A stretch of DNA of 37,015 nucleotides from an uncultured Paracoccaceae bacterium (GTDB lineage: Bacteria; Pseudomonadota; Alphaproteobacteria; Rhodobacterales; Rhodobacteraceae): assembly GCA_937883775.1 (NCBI GenBank), contig CAKZXZ010000098.1:1-37015 (forward strand), read 5' to 3'. Shown here piece after piece: positions 3,347 through 26,080 of the stretch. The notes under the pieces are model-generated. The model saw only the letters and a program-made list of their open reading frames with translations, was not told the origin of the DNA and did no database searches. A program made the translations under genes and the position numbers. Each line of letters starts with the position of its first letter. Positions within the stretch are counted from its first letter, which is position 1.

Positions 3347-4090
3347 GTGACGCAGATGCAAAATACGGTCGATACGTCGGAAGTGGCCAAATTTGAAGCC
3401 ATGGCGGCGGAATGGTGGGACCCGAACGGGAAATTCAAACCGCTGCATATGCTTAATCCCTGCCGATTAGATTATATTACGTCGCAAATCGCAGCCGAGT
3501 TTGATCGCGATCTGAATGAAACCACCCCGTTTGCTGGATTGCGCCTGCTTGATATCGGTTGCGGCGGCGGCTTGCTCTCCGAGCCAATGGCGCGGCTGGG
3601 TGCAACGGTTGTCGGCGCTGACGCAGCCGAAGGGAATATTCCTGTCGCACAGGTGCATGCCACCAGGTCGGGGCTAGAGATCGACTATCGCCACACAACC
3701 GCAGAGGCACTTGCAGACGCGGGAGAGCAGTTCGATATCGTGCTGAATATGGAAGTGGTCGAGCATGTCGCCGACCCGCTTGCCTATCTGACGGCTTGCC
3801 AGATGCTGCTCAAAAAAGGCGGATTGCACCTGTGTTCGACACTGAATCGAAACCCCAAAAGCTATCTTGCGGCGATTATTGGGGCTGAACATGTGATGCG
3901 TTGGTTGCCCAAAGGCACACATGATTGGTCAAAGTTCATCACGCCCGATGAATTGTTTGATCTGCTGACCAAAGCGGGCCTCGATCCAGTGGATCGCAAG
4001 GGCTTTGTCTTTAATCCGGTGACGTGGACCTGGTCATTGTCGGACCGTGATCTCAGCGTGAACTACGTCACGACCAGTTTGAAAAACTAG
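3347..4090 (+). CDS. ubiG: Ubiquinone biosynthesis O-methyltransferase UbiG
   Basis: UbiG carries out both SAM-dependent O-methylations of ubiquinone synthesis. The 247-residue protein contains the family-specific opening [20 protein letters not shown] and the next segment [16 protein letters not shown]. It also has the SAM motif [21 protein letters not shown], the motif [11 protein letters not shown], and the late segment [17 protein letters not shown]. The open frame extends upstream to 3026, but that part is antisense to pip and is not protein-like. GTG at 3347 is preferred because AGGA lies 9 nt before it; the ATG at 3356 is too far from that site. Its stop shares CTAG (4087-4090) with the stop of the convergent marR gene. 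Confidence 0.96.
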
Positions 4091-23375: not shown

Positions 23376-24596
23376 ATGTCTGCGCCCAAGAAAGTCGTAC
23401 TGGCCTATTCCGGCGGCCTTGATACCTCGATCATTCTGAAGTGGTTGCAGACGGAATATGGCTGTGAAGTCGTGACGTTCACTGCTGATCTGGGGCAGGG
23501 CGAAGAGCTGGAACCCGCGCGCAAGAAGGCCGAGATGATGGGTGCCTCCGACATCTATATCGAGGACCTGCGCGAGGAGTTTGTCCGCGATTTTGTCTTC
23601 CCGATGTTCCGGGCGAACGCGCTTTATGAAGGGCTTTATTTGCTTGGGACCTCCATCGCGCGGCCCCTAATTTCGAAGCGTTTGATCGAGATCGCAGAAG
23701 AAACCGGCGCAGATGCCGTCGCTCATGGCGCAACCGGCAAAGGCAACGATCAGGTCCGTTTTGAGCTGGCGGCCTATGCGCTGAACCCCGACATCAAGGT
23801 GATCGCACCTTGGCGGGAATGGGATTTATCGAGCCGCACCAAGCTGATCGACTTTGCCGAAAAGAACCAAATCCCGATCGCAAAAGACAAGCGCGGCGAG
23901 GCGCCGTTTAGCGTAGACGCGAACCTTCTGCACACATCATCTGAAGGCAAAGTGCTGGAAGATCCTGCTGTTGAAGCACCTGATTACGTTTATCAGCGCA
24001 CTGTGGCCCCCGAGGACGCCCCGAACGAGGCGGAGTTCGTCGAGGTCGGGTTTGAAAAAGGCGATGCCGTTTCGATCAATGGCGAGACGATGAGCCCCGC
24101 AACGATTCTCACCAAGCTAAACGAGCTGGGCGGCAAGCACGGCGTGGGCCGTCTTGATCTGGTCGAAGGTCGGTTCGTTGGCATGAAATCCCGTGGGATC
24201 TACGAGACACCCGGCGGCACCATCCTGCTAGAAGCTCATCGCGGCATCGAGCAGATCACGCTGGATCGCGGCGCCGCCCATCTGAAAGACGAGCTGATGC
24301 CGCGCTACGCAGAGCTTGTCTATAATGGTTTCTGGTTCTCACCTGAGCGGGATATGCTGCAAGCGGCCATCGACAAAAGTCAGGAGCATGTCTCTGGCAC
24401 GGTCCGGTTGAAGCTTTACAAAGGGTCTGTGCGCACGGTGGGGCGTTGGTCGGATATGTCGCTTTACAGCGAAGAGCATGTGACGTTTGAGGATGATGCC
24501 GGTGCCTATGACCAAAAGGACGCGGCAGGCTTTATCCAGCTGAACGCGCTGCGTCTGCGTCTGATTGCAATGCGGAACCGTCGGCTGAAAGACTGA
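23376..24596 (+). CDS. argG: Argininosuccinate synthase
   Basis: The enzyme joins citrulline and aspartate with ATP in arginine synthesis. The 406-residue protein has the nucleotide-binding loop [34 protein letters not shown], the segment [20 protein letters not shown] and the C-terminal [20 protein letters not shown]. Length matches the family. ATG 23376 has GGAG about 8 nt upstream. Its last 65 nt overlap, on the opposite strand, the end of the sulfotransferase-like gene. Confidence 0.97.
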
Positions 24597-25311
24597 AAGC
24601 CTTGAGGCGCTCGTAATAGGGCAGCGCCTCTTCTACTATCTCGGCATAGCGCCCTGACAACTTGGGAAGTGGCCCTTCCGCACCTGCAAATCCTGTAGAC
24701 CGATGCACCGCCCCGTACCAATGTGCCGCCCAAACACCATCATTGGGGTGACCACCTGCGGGCCAGCCCAGCATCTTTTCCGTCCAAACGATGCCCAGCG
24801 CCAGACAAAGCGTTTGCAACATTTCACGCGGGCTTTGTCGGATATCATAGCTATCAATCACGGGTGGAGGCGCGCCCAGATCATCGGCGACCTGTTCAAA
24901 CAGATCTGTCTGTTGTGCAAAGCCAAGATCAGCCAAGACAGGCTCTTCGTATTTCTTCGCAAAACTCGCTAGAACGCGCGCTGGATGACGGATCAGAAAG
25001 ACGTTCTGTACCTGTCGCATCCAGTCACGCGGCATGCCTTGGATCATATGTTGACACATATGTTTTTGGTAAAACAGTTTCTGTTTCTGCGGAATTACAC
25101 CCAAACAACGATCTGCGACAGCCTGACCGTCCACCTCGCCGGCCGCGAGGATATCACCGCGCATCGGGTGCTCTAACCCGGTTCGCGATAGATAAGCTGC
25201 ATAAAAAGGCTCGTCCCAAACCGCACAATCACCACGTGCAGCAAAGGCATACATCATGGCAGTCGATAGATTTCTAGGCCCAGACCACATCGCGATATGA
25301 CTTGTCAGCAC
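24532..25311 (-). CDS. Sulfotransferase-like protein
   Basis: The 259-residue protein begins close to a P-loop-like motif [20 protein letters not shown], followed by [20 protein letters not shown]. Later come [12 protein letters not shown] and the second PAPS-binding type segment [20 protein letters not shown]. This pattern is that of a small bacterial sulfotransferase-like family; the substrate is unknown and sulfotransfer is not proven. GTG 25311 (AGGA 8 nt upstream) is preferred; GTG 25338 lies inside a palindromic block. The last 20 or so residues are encoded antisense to the argG 3' end and look like a non-conserved tail. Confidence 0.8.
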
Positions 25312-25333
25312 TCGAGCAATCCTCGCAATGATT

Positions 25334-25356
25334 GTCACGCCTGCGTGACGTCACGC
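25334..25356. promoter_or_regulatory. Triple 7-mer palindromic block, candidate operator
   Basis: Three copies of one 7-mer occur in alternating orientation: GTCACGC (25334-25340), GCGTGAC (25343-25349) and GTCACGC (25350-25356). Copies two and three form a perfect 14-bp palindrome, GCGTGACGTCACGC. The block lies between divergent sulfotransferase-like and msrA genes, and a second palindrome, GATCGCGATC, is at 25373-25382. This suits a dimeric regulator; its identity is unknown. Confidence 0.5.
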
Positions 25357-25414
25357 GGAGGTGAGTTGGTTAGATCGCGATCATTATCCACTCTGCGCAC
25401 AAAGGAGAACACAG

Positions 25415-26080
25415 ATGACGATCACTTTAAGTCAATTTAAGCCACTTATTCTGGGCGTTGCCATCACATTCGGTTCGGTATTGCACTGCTCCGAGGCAAA
25501 GGCCGCAGACACCGATGTTGTAACCGTTGCTGGCGGTTGTTTTTGGTGTGTCGAGTCTGACTTTGAAAGCGTGCCTGGCGTGATCGAGGTTGTGTCTGGC
25601 TATACTGGTGGGACTGTCAAAAACCCCACCTACAAAGATGTCACAAGCGGCAAGAGCGGCCATTATGAAGCCGTACAGATTGAGTTTGACACCGCTACGA
25701 TCAGCGCTGAAACACTTCTGTCCATGTTCTTCAGATCGATTGATCCTACAGATGCGGGCGGTCAATTTTGTGATCGTGGCGAAAGCTATAGTACCGCAAT
25801 TTTCGTCTCTAATTCCGCGGAACAGGCGGCTGCAAAGGAGGTCCGCGCTGAAGCAGAAGCTGCTTTGGGGCAGGAAATCGTGACACCTATCCTGCAAGAG
25901 GCAGAGTTCTATCCCGCTGAAGAATACCATCAGGATTACTACAAAAGCTCGGACGTGATCCTGACGCGTTTTGGGCCAAAGACCAAGAAAGAGGCCTACA
26001 AGCGGTATCGGAATGCGTGCGGGCGCGATGATCGCGTGAAACAATTATGGGGCAGCACGGCACCCTTCGTCGGCGGCTAA
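25415..26080 (+). CDS. msrA: Exported peptide-methionine (S)-S-oxide reductase
   Basis: MsrA repairs S-sulfoxides of methionine. The 221-residue protein has an N-terminal signal peptide ending ...SVLHCSEAKA near residue 30, so it is probably periplasmic, unlike most cytosolic MsrA. The catalytic motif is GGCFWCVESDF with Cys42. Other family segments are VVSGYTGGTVKNPTYKDVTS, GHYEAVQIEFD, DPTDAGGQFCDRGESYST and FYPAEEYHQDYY. ATG 25415 has AAGGAG 7 nt upstream; the longer frame from 25361 lacks this. Its stop overlaps the convergent kinase gene in CTAA (26077-26080). Confidence 0.95.
   Translation: MTITLSQFKPLILGVAITFGSVLHCSEAKAADTDVVTVAGGCFWCVESDFESVPGVIEVVSGYTGGTVKNPTYKDVTSGKSGHYEAVQIEFDTATISAETLLSMFFRSIDPTDAGGQFCDRGESYSTAIFVSNSAEQAAAKEVRAEAEAALGQEIVTPILQEAEFYPAEEYHQDYYKSSDVILTRFGPKTKKEAYKRYRNACGRDDRVKQLWGSTAPFVGG

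Follow-up and report, generated by a model that had tools for sequence, protein, structure and literature searches.

The block of short repeats between the divergent sulfotransferase and msrA genes is very probably a double operator for CenR, lying in the promoter of a predicted periplasmic methionine sulfoxide reductase. The initial annotation of this DNA had held that no known regulator could be assigned to the block; published CenR sites now allow that assignment with good support. The block fits the site bound by CenR, a known cell-envelope stress regulator, and would thus be a new example of a known system.

Two dyads in the predicted msrA promoter

Coordinates refer to the window, which is the whole 37,015-nucleotide stretch of DNA analysed. 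The three 7-mers described in the initial annotation are present, with GTCACGC at 25334–25340 and 25350–25356 and its inverted copy GCGTGAC at 25343–25349, as are the perfect 14-bp palindrome at 25343–25356 and, after the block, a second palindrome, GATCGCGATC, at 25373–25382. The 7-mers belong to a larger unit, TCAC-N6-GTGA-N2-TCAC-N6-GTGA-N-TTG (25335–25368), which reads from 25335 as TCAC-GCCTGC-GTGA, CG, TCAC-GCGGAG-GTGA, G and TTGGTT; its fourth arm, GTGA at 25361–25364, and the adjoining TTG had been overlooked. This unit holds two dyads, 16 bp apart on the + strand, both of which fit TCAC-N6-GTGA and T-[CG]-[AG]-C-N6-GTGA exactly. The distal dyad (TCAC-GCCTGC-GTGA, 25335–25348) forms with its flanks GTCAC-N6-GTGAC (25334–25349), a pattern occurring once in the window. 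The proximal dyad (TCAC-GCGGAG-GTGA, 25351–25364) ends 1 nt before the predicted −35 element, and the 14-bp palindrome is made of the inner arms of both dyads.

The predicted msrA promoter consists of the −35 element TTGGTT (25366–25371, + strand), a 17-bp spacer and the −10 element CACTCT (25389–25394, + strand; CAnnnT). The TTG lies 17 nt after the distal dyad, as it does for 45 of the 64 exact dyads of relatives, and the CA and T columns of the −10 element are conserved in the footprint described below. A generic sigma-70 promoter scan found no promoter at the msrA −35/−10. Downstream follow AAAGGAG, by its sequence a likely ribosome-binding site (25401–25407, + strand), and the ATG of msrA at 25415. 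We infer that transcription starts near the first base of AAAGGAG, which would centre the distal dyad at about −60 and the proximal dyad at about −44.

Family matches bear out the divergent neighbours named in the initial annotation. The msrA gene (25415–26080, + strand) encodes a peptide methionine (S)-S-oxide reductase (PF01625, E 1.1e-55; TIGR00401 above the cut-off), and an N-terminal signal-like stretch suggests that the protein is periplasmic. The sulfotransferase gene (24532–25311, − strand, from the list of open reading frames; PF19798, E 4.3e-78) has an uncertain start codon, with a possible GTG start further upstream, at 25338, that would reach into the distal dyad. A plasmid search with the region returned 5 weak matches, all to msrA alone.

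As a chance control, we used 100 first-order Markov shuffles of the window. Perfect 14-bp palindromes were no rarity, with 4 in the window against a mean of 3.05 and a maximum of 7 per shuffle. The triple of a 7-mer, its reverse complement and the same 7-mer, with gaps of at most 3, had one occurrence in the window; 1 of the 100 shuffles contained such a triple, and none contained the tandem TCAC-N6-GTGA-N2-TCAC-N6-GTGA. Thus, the triple is the signal and the palindrome is not, and the palindrome was rejected as a functional unit. GATCGCGATC was likewise rejected as a part of the element: it lies in the spacer between −35 and −10, has a second copy in the window (at 3503, besides 25373), and is missing from the corresponding place in both congeners.

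Conservation of the element with msrA

We scanned 94 msrA upstream regions, namely those of the window, of 80 genome contigs (the best 80 of 578 relatives), of 2 congeners and of 11 further family genomes, for the 11-base core TCAC-N6-GTGA-N17-TTG. Among the best 80 of 578 relatives, all 11 core bases were matched in 45 upstreams, 10 in 11, 9 in 20 and fewer in 4. Random windows from the same loci (n = 1629) matched 11 core bases in no case, 10 in 10 and 9 in 37, and none of the reversed upstreams exceeded 9. In the 90 of 94 upstreams with at least 9 of the 11 core bases, the conserved columns were the dyad, the TTG 17 nt on and CAnnnT 20 nt further; the random-window control matters here because these 90 had been selected by the core. 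This comparison of relatives' msrA promoters gives good support to the view, taken in the initial annotation, that the block is a regulator's site.

The full tandem occurs in a minority of relatives. Its exact version was found in 13 of 198 family genomes, the window's own included, and msrA was adjacent in all 13. Most relatives keep the distal dyad while the proximal one varies; the latter is identical in both congeners and less conserved than the distal dyad across the wider family.

Such family-wide conservation at a fixed distance to TTG and CAnnnT makes it hardly credible that we are looking at chance palindromes, or at an RNA hairpin or terminator element to which no protein binds, even though 14-bp palindromes of this kind are not rare in the window. 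The dyads also lie upstream of the inferred start, and the sole terminator-like match in 25200–25500 is elsewhere, at 25208–25222.

The initial annotation had suggested that a regulator may control both flanking genes. For msrA this agrees with the data, as at least 10 of the 11 core bases were kept whichever gene lay upstream (argG, 6 of 8; aminotransferase, 20 of 29; sulfotransferase, 13 of 22; other, 17 of 21). For the sulfotransferase it does not: where that gene does not adjoin msrA, a TSRC-N6-GTGA site was present in 1 of 28 loci. Since the core stays with msrA under any neighbour and 27 of the 28 non-adjacent sulfotransferases are without the site, we assign it to the msrA promoter and take the block to be a conserved, msrA-specific promoter operator. 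A shared operator, with a near-symmetric block controlling both msrA and the divergent sulfotransferase, seems rather unlikely. The block does lie between the two genes, its − strand reads as the tandem with 3 mismatches, and the sulfotransferase is directly divergent from msrA in 22 of the best 80 of 578 relatives; against this stand the persistence of the core beside argG, aminotransferase and other genes, the near absence of the site from non-adjacent sulfotransferases, and a − strand without a TTG in the proper position. Sharing is compatible with CenR control of msrA, so that the two readings are not exclusive, and an effect on the sulfotransferase is conceivable because the block is nearly symmetric.

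In many relatives' msrA upstreams, the distal dyad is preceded at about 10 bp (offsets −11 to −7) by a GTAAAC-like element, which replaces the TCAC arm in some of them and is absent from the window. It may be a third half-site.

Match to published CenR sites

In Sinorhizobium meliloti, CenR binds AGTCAC-N6-GTGACT beside the −35 element of the srlA promoter, where mutations in the arms lower activity and a mutated competitor fails to compete (PMC9561847). The corresponding Rhodobacter sphaeroides study gives 31 sites and names the motif TGA-N8-TGA, described as a direct repeat; CenR appears there as an envelope-stress regulator, reported to be essential, whose targets include dsbC, cenR, rpoH1 (by ChIP, expression and gel shift) and an activated msrA (PMC9275681). 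The link to oxidation suggested in the initial annotation fits these data loosely, with dsbC and an msrA among the targets of a regulator that answers envelope stress.

The srlA promoter resembles the window in having the inverted repeat GTCAC-N6-GTGAC directly upstream of −35, and we count its tie to oxidative-stress tolerance as a further likeness (PMC9561847). However, srlA has one box, centred at −42, whereas the window has two, at about −60 and −44; the srlA product is a thioredoxin-fold protein, not MsrA, and S. meliloti belongs to a different order of Alphaproteobacteria. The 15-bp sites of the R. sphaeroides regulon fit T-[CG]-[AG]-C-N6-GTGA and mostly precede the −35 element of the genes that are activated, both as in the window; they are called direct repeats (PMC9275681), whereas the msrA footprint here is an inverted repeat. 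The predicted boxes of the window lie upstream of and close to the predicted −35, the proximal one 1 nt and the distal one 17 nt before TTG, and the same distances were seen in 3 of 22 (1 nt) and 2 of 22 (17 nt) located R. sphaeroides sites.

The 30 published R. sphaeroides sites that we used to build a CenR matrix did not include that of msrA. Among 74,002 window positions, the distal dyad ranked 1 (− strand) and 3 (+ strand) and the proximal dyad 5; ranks 2 and 4 fell to unrelated places, 9441 and 30235. Scores of at least 10 were reached by 58 of 80 msrA upstreams (best 80 of 578) versus 48 of 1346 control windows, with a matrix that is weak, its leave-one-out scores for known sites running from −7.3 to 14.3. 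Of the 30 published sites, 18 carry C at position 2, 11 carry G and 1 carries T. The msrA footprint mostly has C at position 5 (70%), where G or A predominates in the published sites (25 of 30); both boxes of the window carry G there. We predict the distal dyad to be a CenR box from its conserved core, its matrix ranks and its S. meliloti form, and the proximal dyad to be a second one from its rank and its identity in both congeners.

Within the accessible parts of the literature on methionine regulators (PMC4239095) and on the R. sphaeroides network (PMC4344238), nothing matched the block's site, and the accessible Brucella CenR literature gives no site (PMC10746171). In the literature searched, CenKR and msrA were named together in PMC9275681 only, and no report of a tandem CenR site at msrA was found among papers screened mostly by title and the start of the abstract.

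The genome designated G053 was taken as R. sphaeroides because 23 of the 26 published sites (out of 31) that we sought were found in stretches at their published coordinates; those of RSP_0915, RSP_1024 and rpoH1 were not found in the stretches so fetched. The CenR-activated R. sphaeroides MsrA (RSP_0559) shares 41–44% identity with that of the window over the core domain only, and it is the only MsrA matched in G053. Orthology of the two was rejected, as they belong to different MsrA lineages. The G053 msrA upstream (L133) has the published CenR site TGGCGCGAGCGTGAT and, 31 bp downstream, a second box-like sequence, TGCCGTCAGCGTGA, followed after 1 nt by a TCG, a possible −35 element; this promoter, too, may be two-boxed. 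No tandem was found in G053 at up to 3 mismatches.

The cenR gene and its own promoter

Seven OmpR-type DNA-binding matches were found in the window's own genome, and six of them were examined in sequence. One protein showed 88.6% identity over 228 amino acids to the ORF that G053 has at the published position of cenR, and it has, by manual count, D11–13, D51 and D56, as mentioned for CenR. Upstream of this candidate cenR lies ACACGAGAGCGTGAG, the published R. sphaeroides cenR site being ACACGAGCGCGTGAG; the CenR matrix scored this published-type site at 10.3 and another at a higher 12.4. A motif search for CenK in 40 kb of G053 around the guessed position of RSP_1056 found none.

Across the family, 33 genomes gave 31 cenR matches. 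In the upstreams of the best 30, NCAC-N6-GTGA was present in 26 and was followed by TTG 16 or 17 nt on in 25 of these 26; none of the 30 matched in the reversed control. The layout is that of the msrA distal dyad. Many cenR promoters (L172–L197) also share a conserved TTGAAACA upstream of the CenR box, which we take to resemble a heat-shock sigma −35 element. RpoHI is reported to control cenR (PMC9275681).

Further tandems and pattern searches

At up to 3 mismatches, the tandem occurred in the window's own genome at two places beyond the block, which itself matched on both strands; the reversed pattern occurred nowhere. The first place precedes an rpoH gene whose family match exceeds the cut-off; a TTC hexamer there is followed 17 bp later by CATATT, and this tandem recurs in both congeners. 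Its possible counterpart in R. sphaeroides, rpoH1, is among the published CenR targets. The second place precedes the gene of a tiny lipoprotein, beside a gene judged by eye to be ATP-sulfurylase-like; this tandem was found at up to 3 mismatches in one of the two congeners and, by eye, in the other with one base less. The lipoprotein (L092 in the window's genome, L162 and L167 in the congeners; position 1501) is about 35–60 amino acids long and has runs of MMKED-like repeats in the congeners.

With the rpoH tandem and the cenR promoters in hand, it is improbable that a different regulator with a similar TCAC-N6-GTGA site, such as another OmpR-type response regulator, controls msrA instead. The genome has six further OmpR-type DNA-binding matches, the msrA footprint departs from published CenR sites at position 5, and the msrA that CenR is reported to activate is no ortholog of the window's, all of which would suit such a regulator. 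Yet the promoters of cenR itself share the dyad and the 16–17 nt distance to TTG, the same tandem stands before rpoH, and S. meliloti CenR directly binds such an inverted repeat (PMC9561847). Moreover, the upstreams of five other response-regulator genes scored 4.8–8.7 with the CenR matrix, against 10.3 for the published-type site upstream of cenR.

Broader searches also turned up other elements. TCAC-N6-GTGA-N17-TTG had 13 places in the three genus genomes: 3 at msrA, 2 at a TelA-like gene and 8 in a repeated intergenic element. The repeated element has copies of a gene for a small exported protein (MKFALISALVVAAAPAFA...) nearby in the congeners G001 and G002 (L116, L118, L122, L119, L123) and was not found at the same exactness in the window's genome. 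Its 8 places (7 loci viewed) and the TelA-like matches were excluded from the evidence for CenR. The TelA-like gene (L114 and L117, in the congeners; position 1501) follows a YihA/EngB-like GTPase gene, both named by eye, and is a possible further CenR target. TSRC-N6-GTGA-N-TTG likewise had 13 places in the three genus genomes, 3 of them at msrA and several within genes; in the window's own genome it gave 3 places versus 4 in the reversed control, and thus no enrichment. These places were not clearly connected with R. sphaeroides targets. Besides the similarity between the MsrA proteins, there was one 34% match, to an ORF from a stretch holding an R. sphaeroides target, which was judged unrelated.

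Discussion

We propose that phosphorylated CenR, the OmpR-family response regulator of the CenK–CenR envelope-stress system, would bind the distal dyad at about −60 and also the proximal dyad at about −44, where it would touch the −35 element. Bound CenR would then help RNA polymerase on the weak promoter TTGGTT-17 bp-CACTCT, so that envelope stress would raise MsrA, and the two boxes may cooperate.

We give roughly even chances to a wider reading, in which CenR promoters fall into two classes 16 bp apart: a distal one at about −60, seen in most of the msrA and cenR promoters that we examined in Rhodobacteraceae, and a proximal class at about −44, exemplified by S. meliloti srlA and R. sphaeroides RSP_1199. 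Both would be stacked in the window's genus, at msrA, rpoH and the tiny lipoprotein gene, for a stronger or more switch-like output, and CenR control of methionine-sulfoxide repair would have been kept across non-orthologous MsrA proteins.

If the msrA block is indeed a double CenR operator, it favours TCAC-N6-GTGA as an inverted repeat for the CenR core over a plain direct repeat. As CenR is reported essential in R. sphaeroides (PMC9275681), a sharper site would aid the prediction of its targets. The msrA promoter would also lend itself to tests, being compact and having each of its two boxes at a defined position. For the family, it would mean that the CenK–CenR regulon reaches periplasmic methionine repair across many Rhodobacteraceae.
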